34,108 nucleotides of DNA. Origin: Gemmatimonadota bacterium. GTDB lineage: Bacteria; Gemmatimonadota; Gemmatimonadetes; Gemmatimonadales; Gemmatimonadaceae. The first letter of the stretch is position 1; every line of letters starts with the position of its first letter. The notes below the pieces were generated by a model. It searched no databases and had not been told where the DNA came from. It worked only from the letters and a program-made list of their open reading frames with translations. Positions 2,970 through 18,654 of the stretch are shown here, piece by piece. The stretch covers positions 1 through 34,108 of the forward strand of contig JAPLKT010000139.1 in assembly GCA_026387895.1 (NCBI GenBank). The letters are read 5' to 3'. The position numbers were made by a program, and so were the translations under genes.

Positions 2970-5354
<2,385 letters not shown>

Positions 5355-7910: not shown

Positions 7911-7992
7911 CAAAGAGATTTAGCGCATATAAATGTTTACGAAATAACACTAAGTCGTTTTATAGTAGCAGTTTACGATGATATTATAAAAC
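7911..7992 (+). promoter_or_regulatory. AT-rich island with inverted repeat and possible promoter
   Basis: Counting 7911-7990 gives 22 G/C in 80 bases (about 27% GC) inside a strongly GC-rich window. It contains an 8-bp inverted repeat, GTTTTATA (7957-7964) and TATAAAAC (7985-7992), with a 20-nt spacer, and a direct repeat GTTTACGA at 7935 and 7971. TATAGT (7961-7966) could be a -10 element with TTTACG (7936-7941) as a weak -35 at a long 19-nt spacing. It precedes the His/Met-rich gene by about 110-190 bp and is the likely control region of that operon. The regulator is unknown; I do not see a convincing Fur box. Confidence 0.55.
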
Positions 7993-8030
7993 CTCTCGCG
8001 CTGTCGTCCGCACCCCTGAACCTGCCGCCC

Positions 8031-8067
8031 AGCGATCCACCCCCCGATCCACCCAGCGATCCACCCG
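8031..8067. repeat. Short repeats of GATCCACC in the 5' leader
   Basis: CAGCGATCCACC occurs twice, with a third CGATCCACC between the copies, in the non-coding leader before the gene at 8105. The remainder of the leader shows no feature I recognise. Confidence 0.6.
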
Positions 8068-8104
8068 CTAGCGCCTCCGTAGCTGACGGCCCTATATTTC
8101 CGAC

Positions 8105-8584
8105 ATGCTCCGCATAACCGCCGCTCACCGCGTACTCGCGGCTGTGATGGCTCCCTGGCTCGCACTGCTCTTCGCGATGCCAGAGGCCGCACATGCCTGT
8201 GCCATGCACGGCGGTCAGGGGCACGCGATGGTGCATGAGGCGTCCGCGAGCATGGCCCACGACATGGCTCCTGGGATGTCCCACGGAATGTCCCACGGGA
8301 TGTCCCACGACATGTCGGCCGACCTGGCCGCGCCCACGGCAACCACGGCAGCAACTGCGCCAAGTTCGCCAACGCCGGCCCCGTCACCGAACGCCACCCA
8401 CTGCACCTGCCCCGAAGGGTGCTGCACTGTGGTCGTGGCCTTCGCCGCAGTGCCGACCTCGCTCAGCTGGGTGCGCGAGCTCCTCGCACATCGCGACCCG
8501 CAGTATCCGCGTGCCCTGCCGTCGGTGGCCCTGTCCGCCGATGTCCAGCTCCCCTTCGCCAACGGACCACCCGCGCAGGCCTGA
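8105..8584 (+). CDS. Secreted His/Met/Cys-rich protein, probable copper-binding, DUF2946-like
   Basis: A 159-residue protein with a signal peptide (about residues 1-31, ending AHA). Residues 32-72 hold eight Met and seven His arranged as GMSH/DMS repeats, a pattern typical of copper-binding periplasmic proteins. After a Pro/Thr/Ala linker, C100, C102, C106 and C107 form a compact Cys cluster (HCTCPEGCC). The C-terminus ends FANGPPAQA, which resembles the end of DUF2946 proteins. The three GMSH units come from a 12-bp DNA repeat. No clear Shine-Dalgarno precedes ATG 8105. The TonB receptor starts 129 bp downstream on the same strand. Copper binding is inferred from composition and could instead be another soft or borderline metal. 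Confidence 0.78.
   Translation: MLRITAAHRVLAAVMAPWLALLFAMPEAAHACAMHGGQGHAMVHEASASMAHDMAPGMSHGMSHGMSHDMSADLAAPTATTAATAPSSPTPAPSPNATHCTCPEGCCTVVVAFAAVPTSLSWVRELLAHRDPQYPRALPSVALSADVQLPFANGPPAQA
8273..8320 (+). repeat. 12-bp coding repeat (GMSH units)
   Basis: GGGATGTCCCAC occurs at 8273-8284, 8285-8296 (one change) and 8297-8308, with a degenerate fourth unit to 8320. It encodes Gly-Met-Ser-His three times and then Asp-Met-Ser-Ala. Confidence 0.85.
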
Positions 8585-8713
8585 TCGGTCGTGAGCGACG
8601 CTGCGTGAGTCTCCCCGCACCTGCGCGCACGGCCCCGATGATCCGACGCACTCCACCCATCGAACTCGCGATGGTGCCCGGAGTCGTTGCTCTCAGGCCT
8701 TCGGTTTAACATC

Positions 8714-11032
8714 ATGAACTTCGCCACACGGCCCCTCGCGCTCGCGAGTGCCAGTGTACCAACGGGCACAGCCGCTCTCGTGAGCGTCCTGCTGCTCGCC
8801 ACCTCGGCCTTCGCACAACAGACCGCCAAGCCAGACACCGCCACGAAACTCGGCGGCGTCACGATCATGGCGGCGGCTGACGAAACGATCAAGCTTCCAC
8901 CGCTCAGGCTCGCCACACTCCCCGCCACGGCCAGCATTACCGCGCGCACGATGGACGCCACGGTCAACGTGATGGACGTTGAAGACGCGGTGAAATACCT
9001 GCCGAGTCTCTTTCTGCGCAAACGCAACAACGGCGACACCCAAGCGGTCATGGCGACCCGCGTATGGGGCGTCAGCTCAAGCGCGCGAAGCTTGGTCTTT
9101 GCCGACGGCGTGCCGCTCACCGCGCTCATTGCAAACAACAACACCATCGGCGCGCCGCGATGGGGACTCGTGGCACCTACGGAAATCGCACGCGTCGACA
9201 TCATGTACGGCCCCTTCTCGGCCGCCTACGCCGGCAACTCCATGGGCGCCGTGCTCGAGATGACCACGCGCATGCCCGCGAAGTTCGAAGGCACCGTGAG
9301 TCAGTCGAACGCGCAACAAGCATTCGATCTGTACGGCACCAAGCAGTGGTTCGGCACATCGCAGAGCGCGCTCGCCGTCGGCGACCGAATCGGCAAGGTC
9401 TCGTTCTGGGTGAGCGGCAACTATCAGAGCAGTCATGCACAGCCACTGACCTACGTGACCGCCGCCTCATTCCCCACCGGCACCACCGGCGGCTACAGCG
9501 AACTCAATAAACTCGGCACCGCAGCGAACGTGCTTGGCGCAAGCGGACTGCTCAACAGTCGCATGACGAATGGCAAGGTGAAGCTTGCCTATGACATCAC
9601 GCCGACGGTGCGCGCGTCCTACACGTACGGGATGTGGCGCAACGATGCCGACGCAGGTGTCGCACCGTACATCCGCAAGACGGGTGACCCGACCTACGCC
9701 GCGGTCGCAGGCTTTGCGAGTGGCACCTATCAGCTGGTGCAGCAGCATGCCTCACAGGCGCTGACGGTACGCTCCGACACCAAGGGCGCCTGGGACTGGG
9801 AAGTGGTGGCCTCAACTTATGCCATCGACAAGGACCAGCAGCGCTCGCCCACGACCGCGGCCGCAACCGGGCAGAGTTTTGGATCGGCAGGAAAAGTCGC
9901 GGTCCTCGACGGCACCCACTGGAACACCGTCGACGCAAAAGCGCTCTGGCGCATTGGGGGCGCGAACGCGGACCACACGCTGAGCGTTGGTGTGCATCAG
10001 GATGCGTACGCCCTCATCAACCCGACATACACCAGCGCCGAGTGGACGGCGGGGGCGTTCGGCACGGTGGCGTCGGAGGGCGATGGCAAAACGCAGACGC
10101 AGGCGCTCTGGGTGCAAGATGCGTGGAAGCTCGGCGCGCGGTTCACCCTCACGTACGGTGGTCGCTACGAACGCTGGACAGGCTTTGACGGCTACAACGT
10201 GAATGGTGCGACCAAGGTCACGCAGGCGACCAACAGCGTGAGCAACGTTTCACCGAAGGCGATCTTGGGATGGGCGGCGACATCAGATCTGACCGTCACC
10301 GCGTCGGTCGGGAAGGCCTATCGCTATGCCACCGCGAGTGAGCTGTTTCAGCTCGTCACAACCGGCGCGACCTTCACGTCGCCGAACCCCACGCTCAAGC
10401 CGGATGATGTCTTAGCGTCGGAACTGCGCTTCGATCAACGGTTCGACAAGGGCAGTGTGCAGGTCGCGCTCTTCCAAGACGATGTGCACGATGCGATGAT
10501 TGCACAGTATCTCCCGCTCGTGAGTGGCTCCAGCACGCTGTACTCGTATGTGTCGAATGTCGACCATGTGCGGGCGCGCGGCGTCGAGCTGATTCTGAAC
10601 ACGCACGGCCTCGGTGTCGAACAGCTGGACCTGTCGGGAAGCGTCACGTATCTGGATGCCCGTGTGCTTGCGCTGAGTGGCGCAGCGACCGCGACCGCGA
10701 CGCCGGGCGCGGCCGTGGGCAAGTTCCTGCCGAACATTCCGGATGTGCGGGCCAGTGTGCAGGCGACCTACCGCGCCACGGACCGCGTAGGACTGTCGAT
10801 CGCGGGGCGCTACAGTGGCAAGATGTATACGACTCTCGACAACGCCGACGTATATCCGAACACCTATCAGGGATTTTCTGGATGGTTCGTAGCAGACGCA
10901 AAGGCGACGTATCGAATTGGCCGCGGCGTTGGTGTTTCCCTCGGCGTCGATAATCTCTTGGATCGCAAGTATTTCCTCTTTCATCCGTTCCCGCAGCGGA
11001 CCTTCGTGGGGAGTCTCAAGTATGATTTCTAA
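8714..11032 (+). CDS. TonB-dependent outer-membrane receptor (candidate metal receptor)
   Basis: A 772-residue protein. The signal peptide runs to about residue 35 (TSAFAQQ). A plug domain follows, containing VFADGVPLTAL and the conserved IARVDIMYGPFSAAYAGNSMG block, then a long 22-strand-type barrel that ends in SLKYDF with a terminal Phe, as expected for BAM-assembled proteins. Energised uptake across the outer membrane through TonB is the family role; the substrate is not stated by the sequence. Its position between a His/Met-rich protein and a Cys-cluster protein argues for copper or another metal chelate, recalling OprC/NosA-type receptors, but I cannot align it to them here. ATG 8714 is preferred to TTG 8687. 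Its stop overlaps the next gene by 11 bp. Confidence 0.9.
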   Translation: MNFATRPLALASASVPTGTAALVSVLLLATSAFAQQTAKPDTATKLGGVTIMAAADETIKLPPLRLATLPATASITARTMDATVNVMDVEDAVKYLPSLFLRKRNNGDTQAVMATRVWGVSSSARSLVFADGVPLTALIANNNTIGAPRWGLVAPTEIARVDIMYGPFSAAYAGNSMGAVLEMTTRMPAKFEGTVSQSNAQQAFDLYGTKQWFGTSQSALAVGDRIGKVSFWVSGNYQSSHAQPLTYVTAASFPTGTTGGYSELNKLGTAANVLGASGLLNSRMTNGKVKLAYDITPTVRASYTYGMWRNDADAGVAPYIRKTGDPTYAAVAGFASGTYQLVQQHASQALTVRSDTKGAWDWEVVASTYAIDKDQQRSPTTAAATGQSFGSAGKVAVLDGTHWNTVDAKALWRIGGANADHTLSVGVHQDAYALINPTYTSAEWTAGAFGTVASEGDGKTQTQALWVQDAWKLGARFTLTYGGRYERWTGFDGYNVNGATKVTQATNSVSNVSPKAILGWAATSDLTVTASVGKAYRYATASELFQLVTTGATFTSPNPTLKPDDVLASELRFDQRFDKGSVQVALFQDDVHDAMIAQYLPLVSGSSTLYSYVSNVDHVRARGVELILNTHGLGVEQLDLSGSVTYLDARVLALSGAATATATPGAAVGKFLPNIPDVRASVQATYRATDRVGLSIAGRYSGKMYTTLDNADVYPNTYQGFSGWFVADAKATYRIGRGVGVSLGVDNLLDRKYFLFHPFPQRTFVGSLKYDF

Positions 11033-12350
11033 CATCGCGCGCGTGATGGTGTGTGCGAGCATCGTCGGCCTCTCGCCGGCGGTGTTCGTGGGTGCTGTTG
11101 CACAGGCGCAGGGTTCCACGACCACGCTTGCGGTGGCAGGACGGTACAACGCGAATCCCTCGATCGCTGCGCGCGGAAATTTTGCCGCGGTGGCCTGGTC
11201 GGGGACACTCGGCAGTACGATGGACATTTATGTCGCGACAAGCCGAGATGGTGGGGCGAAGTGGAGCGCCCCGGTGCAGGTGAATGCCACGGCCGGTGAT
11301 GCGCGCGTGAGTGGGGAGCAACCGCCACGTGTGGTGTTGGTCGCGGGGCGGGGCGCCACACCGGAGATCGTGGTGGTGTGGGGGAGCAAAGGAACGACCG
11401 GTTCGCGGCTGCTACGTGCGCGTTCGACCGATGGTGGAAAGACCTTCGGTGCGAGCATCCTCGTGGCTGGTGCAGACGGCGAGGGGAACCGCGGGTGGGA
11501 GTCGCTGGCCGCGGATTCAAGCGGGCGCGTGTATGCGCTGTGGCTCGATCATCGCGAGACGGTGATGCCGGCCGCGATGCATCATCAAGATGGCACGACG
11601 ATGCCTGCCGCCGTTCCTGCCGCCGTTCTTGCGGCTGTTCCTGCGCCGAAGATTGATCCCAACGAGAAGGCGAATAAGTCGCAACTCTACTTTGGCTCGC
11701 TCGATGGGAGGGCTGGCGTCGCGGCGCGCGGGATCGCGCGCGGCGTTTGCTATTGCTGCAAGACGTCGTTGGTTGCGTCGGGCGGCGCGATCTACGCGGT
11801 GTGGCGCCACGTATTTCCGGGGAACCAGCGAGATATTGGCTTCACGGTGTCGCGCGATGGGGGCAAGACGTTCAGTGCGATTACGCGCGTGAGCGAAGAT
11901 CACTGGCAGTTCGACGGATGCCCCGAGAATGGTCCGGCCGTGGCAGTGGACCGGCAGCAGCGCACCCATGTGCTCTGGGCAGCGCCGGTCGATGGCAAAG
12001 ATGGATCGCCCTTGGCGTTGTATCATGCGCTCACCACGGACGGAAAAACTTTTACCGCACGCACGCAGGTGCCCGCGCGCGGACCCGCGGGACATGTGCA
12101 GGTCACGGCGGTCTCCGATGGATCGCTCGTGATTGCGTGGGACGAGAATGTGAGTGGCACCCGCCACGTGGCGTTTGCGCGCGCGGTGGTCAATGCGGCC
12201 GGGCGCGTGACGTTCAGTCCCGTACACGCGGGCGACGACGACGTCGGACGCGGCTATCCTGTGGTGGCGACTGCGGCATCGGGTGTGCTTGCCGCGTGGG
12301 TCAAGCAGATCCCGAACGGAACGACCATTGGGGTGGCGCGTGCGCAGTAG
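11022..12350 (+). CDS. Secreted Asp-box propeller with CxCC cluster (sialidase-like fold, probable metal-related role)
   Basis: A 442-residue protein. It has a signal peptide (to about residue 29, VAQAQG) followed by Asp-box repeats (SRDGGAKW, STDGGKTF, SRDGGKTF), so a sialidase-like propeller is expected. Unusual features are C243-Y-C245-C246 in GVCYCCKTS, a separate C300 in FDGCPENGP, and a Met/His stretch near residues 182-194 (MPAAMHHQDGTTM). A Cys triad in an exported protein beside two putative metal-handling proteins suggests metal binding. ATG 11022 overlaps the TonB receptor gene by 11 bp and has GGGGAG 8 nt upstream, so translation is coupled. Automated names such as exo-alpha-sialidase would reflect only the fold; I see no evidence for sialic acid cleavage. 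Confidence 0.82.
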   Translation: MISNIARVMVCASIVGLSPAVFVGAVAQAQGSTTTLAVAGRYNANPSIAARGNFAAVAWSGTLGSTMDIYVATSRDGGAKWSAPVQVNATAGDARVSGEQPPRVVLVAGRGATPEIVVVWGSKGTTGSRLLRARSTDGGKTFGASILVAGADGEGNRGWESLAADSSGRVYALWLDHRETVMPAAMHHQDGTTMPAAVPAAVLAAVPAPKIDPNEKANKSQLYFGSLDGRAGVAARGIARGVCYCCKTSLVASGGAIYAVWRHVFPGNQRDIGFTVSRDGGKTFSAITRVSEDHWQFDGCPENGPAVAVDRQQRTHVLWAAPVDGKDGSPLALYHALTTDGKTFTARTQVPARGPAGHVQVTAVSDGSLVIAWDENVSGTRHVAFARAVVNAAGRVTFSPVHAGDDDVGRGYPVVATAASGVLAAWVKQIPNGTTIGVARAQ

Positions 12351-16505: not shown

Positions 16506-17018
16506 CTACTTGGCAATCACTCCGCAGGCGATCCGCGCACCAGCGGCACCGGCGGGGTTTGTCTTGTAGTCATCGCCGACGGCGTGCATAACAATCGCCG
16601 TGCCGCCGCTCTTGAAGAGCGAGTTTGCGCCGGCGCCGAGTGTGACGTCGCGCGCCATGGCGTCAAAGGTGAGCGCGCCATCGGTTGGGACCTGTACGTT
16701 CGGCAGATCGCCGGCGTGCATCCCCATCGGGTTGGCCATGCCGTGCTGCTTGCTTGCTGGATTGAAGTGCCCGCCGGCCGAGGTGAAGGGCGCGTCGCAG
16801 GTGCCCGTCTCGTGGATATGGAAGGCGTGCGGCCCCGCCGGCATGCCGGTGAGGACGACGTGCATGAGCACGCCATTCGGCGAATCCGTCAGCGTAGCCT
16901 GACCGACGACCGCGCCCTTGGCGTCCTTCAGTTCAGCCTTCGCGGTGGCCGCGTCCTGTGCAGTTGCAGTGGAGGCGCACAGCACGAGCGCGATCATGGC
17001 ATATGACATCGACTTCAT
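16506..17018 (-). CDS. sodC: Cu/Zn superoxide dismutase, periplasmic
   Basis: A 170-residue protein with a signal peptide (about residues 1-20, STATAQ), so it dismutates superoxide outside the cytoplasm. All metal ligands are present: Cu via H67, H69, H84 and H145; Zn via H84, H92, H101 and D104. The disulfide pair is C74/C165 and the active-site Arg is R162. ATG 17018 has AGGAG 6 nt upstream. It is the last gene of the minus-strand run and is followed by a strong hairpin. The 94-bp gap from ridA may hold its own promoter, but I see no convincing boxes. Confidence 0.95.
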   Translation of the reverse strand: MKSMSYAMIALVLCASTATAQDAATAKAELKDAKGAVVGQATLTDSPNGVLMHVVLTGMPAGPHAFHIHETGTCDAPFTSAGGHFNPASKQHGMANPMGMHAGDLPNVQVPTDGALTFDAMARDVTLGAGANSLFKSGGTAIVMHAVGDDYKTNPAGAAGARIACGVIAK

Positions 17019-17613: not shown

Positions 17614-18654
17614 TTAGGACCGACTGTAGGCCTCGCGCGCGGCCAAGGTCACCGCGGTCAGCAGCAATAGCGCCCCCGCCTGATGCGCCATACCGATTGC
17701 CACCGGAACCGCGAGCAGGAGGACGGTGATGCCCAGCGTGACCTGGACCGCGACGGCAACCATCATCAACGTGAGTCGTGAGCGAAGGCGTGGCCACGCA
17801 TGCTTGCGCACCGTGAGCGCTACACCGATGACCGCGAGCAATGTGACGATCGCCAGCACACGATGATCAAACTGCGCGCTCGCGGGATCTTCGAACAGGC
17901 TCTTCCACCAGGGAACCATCGTCCCGTACTCGACAGGGACGAACCCCGCCCCCATGAAGGGGAACTCATTGTAAATACGGCCCGCGCGGAGCCCCGCGAC
18001 AAAGGCGCCGCTGACGACCGTGAGGAATGCGAGCGCGAGCAGCACGAGGAGCGATCCCTTTGGTGCGCGCGACCGGCTGCCGTTGTTCGCGACCGGTGAC
18101 CGCTTCTCCGCAAGCAGACCGTCTGCCGTCCAGATCGTAATCAAATAAATCACGAGCGCCAGCGAAAGGTGCGCGGCAAGTCGATACTGACTCACATTCA
18201 CGCGCGCGGTCAGCCCACTCGACACCATGTACCACCCCATCGCCCCCTGCAGGCCCATGAGCACCCCGAGGGTGCCAAGTCGCGGAAGCAATGCCCCCGG
18301 GAGACGGCGGCGGAGCGCGAACCAGAGCAACGGGAGTACGAAGACCACGCCAACCAGGCGCGCCCAGAACCGGTGTAGGAACTCCCACCAGAAGATCGCC
18401 TTGAACGCGCCGAGTGTCATACCGGCGTTCATCTTGGCATACTGGGGGATCAGCTTGTATTTGTCGAACTCTGACTGCCAAGTCGCGTCGGTGAGCGGCG
18501 GGAGGACGCCGGAGACCGGCTTCCATTCCGTGATGGAGAGTCCGCTCTCGGTGAGCCGTGTGCCACCGCCAATCAGGACGAGGAGAAAGAGCATCCCCGC
18601 CCACGCGGTGAGCCAACGGCCGATCGTGATGCGGTCGATTGTGGTGGTGTTCAT
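17614..18654 (-). CDS. ctaA: Heme A synthase (Cox15/CtaA)
   Basis: A 346-residue, about eight-helix membrane enzyme that oxidises the C8 methyl of heme O to a formyl group to give heme A for aa3-type oxidases. The Cox15-type signature is clear: GGGTRLTESGLSITEWKP near residue 29, then FWWEFLHRFWARLVG with H94. Further heme-ligand His residues are H162 (RLAAH), the FDHRVLAI His and the GMAHQAG His in the second half. ATG 18654 is the natural start. It lies 94 bp downstream of the truncated hemoglobin gene. No cytochrome oxidase subunit gene is in the window. Confidence 0.95.
   Translation of the reverse strand: MNTTTIDRITIGRWLTAWAGMLFLLVLIGGGTRLTESGLSITEWKPVSGVLPPLTDATWQSEFDKYKLIPQYAKMNAGMTLGAFKAIFWWEFLHRFWARLVGVVFVLPLLWFALRRRLPGALLPRLGTLGVLMGLQGAMGWYMVSSGLTARVNVSQYRLAAHLSLALVIYLITIWTADGLLAEKRSPVANNGSRSRAPKGSLLVLLALAFLTVVSGAFVAGLRAGRIYNEFPFMGAGFVPVEYGTMVPWWKSLFEDPASAQFDHRVLAIVTLLAVIGVALTVRKHAWPRLRSRLTLMMVAVAVQVTLGITVLLLAVPVAIGMAHQAGALLLLTAVTLAAREAYSRS

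Follow-up and report, generated by a model that had tools for sequence, protein, structure and literature searches.

How bacteria take up copper across their outer membrane is still little understood. Leader-controlled copper operons with a TonB-dependent receptor, of the CruR/CrtA and CutF-like kinds, have already been described in Pseudomonadota (PMC9426467, PMC9973294, PMC12914433). In Bordetella pertussis, the copper-responsive leader CruR carries a CXXC motif followed by 45 residues, the sequence RAPP and three further residues, and its response to copper is strongly weakened by five extra residues in the spacer; a gap of 162 nt separates the leader gene from the receptor gene (PMC9426467). 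The operon cruR-crtA(bfrG)-bp2921 is copper-repressed, and the copper brought in by CrtA serves haem-copper oxidases (PMC9426467, PMC12914433). Control by CruR is marked by Rho termination that depends on copper, together with arrest of the ribosome. CutF works at the level of translation and in the other direction, copper enhancing expression; a survey of such leaders, restricted to proteins of <150 aa, found them mostly in Pseudomonadota and Bacteroidota, with TonB receptors among their commonest neighbours (PMC9973294). Here we describe a three-gene locus at positions 8105-12350 of contig JAPLKT010000139.1 of a Gemmatimonadota bacterium (assembly GCA_026387895.1), analysed over its whole length of 34,108 nucleotides (the window). 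We consider it likely that the locus is a copper-acquisition operon controlled by a copper-sensing leader peptide.

All three genes lie on the forward strand. The leader gene (8105-8584) encodes a protein of 159 aa with an export signal, a Met/His-rich stretch, the cysteine cluster C100xCxxxCC107, a linker and a C-terminal NGPP. It is followed by a C-rich gap of 129 nt (8585-8713), a candidate site for leader-dependent control, and by the gene of a TonB-dependent receptor of 772 aa (8714-11032; translation could also begin at a TTG at 8687). The receptor gene overlaps by 11 bp (11022-11032) with that of an exported Asp-box protein of 442 aa, the propeller (11022-12350). The C/G ratio is 1.33 in the gap, similar in the leader gene and 1.04 in the receptor gene. 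These coordinates and the overlap agree with the initial annotation, which had proposed an undescribed metal-handling operon around the receptor. All three reading frames are intact in a near-identical genome, with few synonymous/nonsynonymous codon changes in the three genes (6/3, 7/4 and 2/2). Because the frames are kept there and homologues occur across several phyla, the arrangement is not due to chance.

Conserved geometry of the leader protein

Residues 33-73 of the leader, 41 in all, contain 8 Met and 7 His, and cysteines occur at positions 32, 100, 102, 106 and 107; the counts and the cluster had been reported correctly in the initial annotation. The signal peptide call refers only to an N-terminal hydrophobic stretch. 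Exactly 45 residues lie between the last motif cysteine, C107, and NGPP, which is followed by AQA and the stop codon. About 45 residues are needed for a cysteine site to emerge from the ribosome tunnel. The locus resembles the CruR operon in its exported Cys-motif leader as first gene, the 45-residue gap, xxPP plus three residues, a long intergenic gap and a TonB-dependent receptor. It differs in that the leader is Met/His-rich and occurs in phyla other than Pseudomonadota, and in the third gene, which is PepSY_TM there and here a propeller with a CxCC motif (or, in sister operons, CopC/CopD-YcnI).

In an alignment of 14 leaders, Met1, C32, H64, C100, C102, P150, P155 and P156 were invariant and the CxC...C motif was kept. 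The window leader ends in LPFANGPP plus AQA, and LPF(A/S)NxPP is common among its relatives. The gap between the last motif cysteine and xxPP measured 45.8 ± 1.1 residues (range 43-48) in 30 Gemmatimonadota leaders; the distance from the N-terminal cysteine to the motif varied, with a standard deviation of 17.9 across all 40 leaders where scorable. Pairwise identity within the linker of the 30 leaders was 11.8%, compared with 10.2% for shuffled sequences, and reached 56% in the terminal ten residues. This set had been chosen partly on spacing; a repeat analysis dropped the spacing and Pro-Pro (PP) filters and considered Cys-rich open reading frames (ORFs) that begin with a hydrophobic stretch, with ORFs of this type from other positions in these loci as controls. 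A PP ending was found in 29 of 34 ORFs just upstream of the receptor versus 17 of 152 control ORFs (Fisher p ~4e-17, a value overstated since the loci are related). In the same repeat, cysteines were near-absent 11-40 residues before the PP motif and plentiful at 41-52. Leaders of Acidobacteriota end mostly in DAPPPR/K or ESPPPRA and those of Nitrospinota in LDPPP, with similar geometry. From these sequence features the likeliest reading is that the protein acts as a regulator in its nascent state, in the manner of CruR and CutF, and not chiefly as a metal carrier. Its Met/His stretch may provide additional copper binding.

With CutF-like leaders the protein shares the export signal, the Cys motif, the C-terminal PP and copper genes downstream. 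It has the signal peptide, a PP within the last 15 residues and a same-strand neighbour at ≤1000 nt, as in the rules of the CutF survey, and differs in that its 159 aa exceed the survey's 150-aa limit. No Pfam domain was matched in the leader and no NCBIfam family fitted it; for the NCBI family HYC_CC_PP, considered as an analogous leader, neither a paper nor a match was found. Matches to DUF2946 in three Gemmatimonadota genomes (G083, G090 and G264) lie on contigs that differ from those of the propeller loci, so in these genomes DUF2946 leaders and propeller-locus leaders are separate genes. A true DUF2946 leader of 117 aa ending in LRAPPARS is also encoded in the window genome (L143, G000:C81:8000-18000, 4780-5133, minus strand). 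It precedes a porin-like gene, ZnuA, and ABC ATPase and permease genes, a zinc-uptake-like cluster, and this CruR-type leader perhaps senses zinc.

The receptor and its sister operons

The receptor was matched by the Pfam models for the Plug (6e-12) and the TonB_dep_Rec barrel (4e-42), as expected from the initial annotation. The comparison with OprC/NosA-type receptors made there was not borne out, TIGR01778 giving no match at E ≤ 1. The protein is free of cysteine; H345, H428, H592, H618, H757, M164, M177 and M284 are kept in 15-16 of 16 sequences. Orthologues were present in 15 of 118 genomes of the family, and 15 aligned relatives are 56-63% identical to the window receptor; for the orthologues that stand in leader-receptor-CopC/CopD-YcnI operons the range is 56-64%. 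The solved structures found as relatives were receptors for haem, siderophores, colicin and B12, all of them distant, and the absence of a CrtA structure from this comparison says little.

A PP-ending leader stands upstream of the receptor in 10 of 10 loci (L133-L142). The receptor is followed by a propeller only in L139, and in seven of the ten by genes for fused CopC-CopD and for YcnI/DUF1775, identified by Pfam in L133 and L137, by tblastn in L140, and by N-terminal sequence and length in L134, L135, L141 and L142. The remaining two are L136, which stops soon past the receptor, and L138, which showed neither the propeller nor CopC-CopD/YcnI. Receptors of the propeller-type and CopC/CopD-type operons are equally similar to the window receptor, which makes it probable that both carry the same cargo. 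In the CrtA family, the binding site comprises Y130, W265, E337, Q356, H358 and R395, and a PepSY_TM gene lies downstream at >75% of loci, a feature that is common though not strictly defining (PMC9426467, PMC12914433). In place of PepSY_TM, the propeller follows the window receptor, and CopC/CopD-YcnI follows the receptor in the sister operons.

TonB-dependent receptors are importers by family. Judged by family and gene context, the window receptor probably imports copper, likely as a chelate. The same plan was seen with a non-orthologous receptor in L047:4380-9077, where a leader is accompanied by a TonB receptor with four cysteines, a propeller that is rich in Met and bears CPCC, and a TlpA-like gene.

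The propeller and the copper genes around it

Protein 3 matches the Pfam families BNR_2 and Asp-box BNR. Its cysteines are Cys11 (within the signal peptide), C243, C245 and C246, which form C-Y-C-C, and C300 in DGCPENGP; a Met/His stretch, MPAAMHHQDGTTM, directly follows residue 180. The exported Asp-box protein with its cysteine cluster, lone cysteine and Met/His stretch was thus as initially annotated. C243, C245, C246 and C300 are invariant across 49 diverse propellers. A confident AlphaFold2 model (predicted local distance difference test score (pLDDT) 89.0, predicted template modelling score (pTM) 0.87) was nearest in fold to the CylK propeller (Z 34.8, root mean square deviation 3.2), followed by PLL lectins (Z 29.6) and sialidases (Z ~22.5); solved sialidases rank under other propellers. 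The CylK C-terminal propeller and the PLL lectins (PDB 7fh8 and 8q82) are alike in fold at 8-12% identity to the window propeller, with no functional link, and the best PDB match by sequence had an E value of 0.11. CylK and PLL propellers are seven-bladed, from which the window propeller is predicted to be so too. Family libraries name the family only BNR-repeat or sialidase-like, and a literature search on the propeller with copper, MbnP/MbnH, sialidase or BNR returned nothing relevant, most subscription journals lying outside it. We propose that the propeller binds copper at the site formed by CxCC and the lone cysteine and at the Met/His loop.

Relatives of the propeller (E ≤ 1e-20) were found in 41 of 298 genomes and 24 of 119 genera of a phylum sample. 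The gene order leader-receptor-propeller recurs in their neighbourhoods, in some loci with the addition of a TlpA/ResA-like thioredoxin, which lies between these genes or behind them. When 84,980 species genomes were scanned, propellers occurred in records of Gemmatimonadota, Acidobacteriota, Nitrospinota, Methylomonas, Bacteroidota and Calditrichia, among others; some of these records are metagenome bins with apparently wrong labels, such as L055, which is labelled Kuenenia and carries the Gemmatimonadota operon of L033. Conservation of the trio extends across Gemmatimonadota, and that of parts of it to Acidobacteriota, Nitrospinota, Bacteroidota and others. The initial annotation had named failure of the trio to be conserved in related genomes as grounds for rejection; the three genes are found together there, and the recurring order supports both a single operon with the receptor at its centre and the propeller as a conserved partner. 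A second propeller of the family, with CDCC, is encoded in the window genome (L002, G000:C153 near 71233-71886) and is followed by a TlpA/ResA-like gene; no leader-receptor pair was present within the 3.7 kb examined beside it.

Several propeller loci carry copper genes. MbnP, MbnH and CopC genes lie near the propeller in L038, and MbnP and MbnH in L075. CusF is encoded directly downstream of the propeller in the Acidobacteriota loci L084 and L089, and is fused to it in an Acidobacteriota record (L092:6917-8512). Fusion to a YHS domain was seen in a Bacteroidota record (L129:6001-7428) and in one other member, L131, by sequence. In Methylomonas sp. LW13 (L121, 6749-10190), the gene of a CSCC propeller precedes those for CopC, for an unnamed lipoprotein and for a HupE/UreJ_2 (HupE_UreJ_2) protein; the organism is a methanotroph, and methanotrophs need much copper. 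The CopC/CopD-YcnI, MbnP/MbnH and CusF modules share the propeller's place or adjoin it, and they differ from it in belonging to other families, with no sequence relation to the propeller seen. Because these separate contexts in different phyla all agree, copper, which the initial annotation had suggested, is well supported by comparative sequence data as the predicted metal of the operon.

Genes for Cu/Zn superoxide dismutase (16506-17018, minus strand) and haem A synthase (COX15/CtaA; 17614-18654, minus strand) lie 4-6 kb downstream of the operon. With one match to haem-copper oxidase subunit I in the window genome, these indicate that copper users exist in the organism. No copper operon was visible around the CopD gene of this genome. 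Upstream of the leader gene, an AT-rich block (7927-7995, forward strand; 75% AT over 60 nt) contains two TTTACGA repeats, at 7936 and 7972 and 36 bp apart, and is a putative promoter/operator. A similar AT-rich block was absent from the five relatives checked, and the repeats were dropped as a shared operator.

Proposed control of copper acquisition and its alternatives

The anatomy of the leader suggests how the operon would work. During translation of the leader, ribosomes would pause at the C-terminal LPFANGPP, at which point the Cys cluster some 45 residues upstream would stand just outside the ribosome, free to bind copper. Binding would alter the pause and hence read-through into the receptor gene, and Rho may take part in this control in the leader-receptor gap. 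By analogy with CruR, low copper would permit expression and high copper would shut it off. The receptor would then bring in copper, probably chelated, and the exported propeller would bind it and hand it to periplasmic users, filling the place held by CopC/CopD and YcnI in the sister operons. What the sequences and the model show directly is the order of the genes and their conservation, the spacing of the motifs, the copper genes nearby, the fused domains and the predicted fold.

Several observations weigh against this explanation. The window leader has CxCxxxCC instead of the CXXC of CruR, and NGPP instead of RAPP at the matching place. Pfam PF11162 (DUF2946) did not match it at E ≤ 1 and matched 5 of 14 leader relatives weakly, with a best E of 0.036. 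Of 44 receptor-propeller loci, 15 yielded no leader under the rule applied to the others, and the loci, having been found via related proteins, are non-independent samples. Copper genes nearby are no proof of a copper cargo for the receptor, and no member of the propeller family has an assigned function. Since CutF and CruR respond oppositely, the sign of the copper response here is a guess.

That last point bears on copper defence, in which a CutF/CopL-like leader would induce the operon at high copper, and the propeller and CopC/CopD would sequester the metal. A CopL-family profile matches 3 of 14 leaders weakly, CopC, CopD and CusF are frequently resistance genes, and CutF itself raises expression with copper. 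We nevertheless regard defence as unlikely, given a receptor that is an importer by family and a B. pertussis counterpart operon that is repressed by copper and whose CrtA supplies haem-copper oxidases.

The initial annotation had taken the first protein to pass metal to or from the receptor. As a mature periplasmic carrier or buffer, it could bind copper through its Met/His-rich stretch and Cys cluster, the export signal would place it suitably, and the PP end would be incidental; the two roles need not be mutually exclusive. A folded protein is, however, not expected to hold a fixed Cys-to-PP spacing over an unconserved linker together with a conserved extreme C-terminus. These features, LPFANGPP included, fit a regulatory leader and make a main role as carrier distinctly unlikely. 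The Met content of leader relatives also varies strongly, from 2 to 13, and in B. pertussis peptides of the downstream proteins were detected and those of the leader counterpart were not (PMC9426467).

It is improbable that the metal is zinc, nickel or cobalt, or that the receptor's cargo is a siderophore or vitamin B12. The DUF2946 leader before the porin-ZnuABC-like cluster illustrates that some leaders are not linked to copper, and HupE/UreJ-linked CutF-like leaders may serve further metals. Among TIGR families, the receptor comes closest to the haem and siderophore types, but these matches are far under their NCBIfam cut-offs (122 against 323.75 bits for haem and 97.5 against 223.5 for siderophore), as is the B12 match (73.5 against 599.7), and the CopC/CopD-YcnI, MbnP/MbnH and CusF contexts indicate copper. 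That the propeller is a sialidase-like sugar enzyme or lectin present by accident, as its BNR/Asp-box repeats and the sialidases and PLL lectins among its fold matches might suggest, is very improbable in view of the linkage kept over phyla, the invariant CxCC and lone cysteine, the CusF and YHS fusions, and a fold nearer to CylK and PLL than to sialidases.

The designation of the operon as undescribed held in part: leader-receptor copper operons were known from Pseudomonadota, and no description of the propeller or of this leader family was found in the searched literature. Three elements are new: a leader family that falls outside the DUF2946 profile and exceeds the CutF survey's 150-aa limit, the phyla concerned, and the partnership with a propeller. 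Somewhat short of an even chance, in our estimate, attaches to the broader proposal that environmental phyla share a widespread and so far undescribed module for acquiring copper, combining a DUF2946-remote nascent-chain sensor of 45-residue geometry with a copper-site propeller that replaces CopC/CopD and takes copper, or its chelate, from the receptor. If copper acquisition under leader control is the true function, nascent-leader control by copper would extend to phyla whose copper control is little known. What is conserved would be the geometry, with the Cys site set roughly the length of the ribosome tunnel away from the PP pause, rather than the sequence, and a function would be assigned to a propeller family so far labelled only BNR-repeat or sialidase-like.

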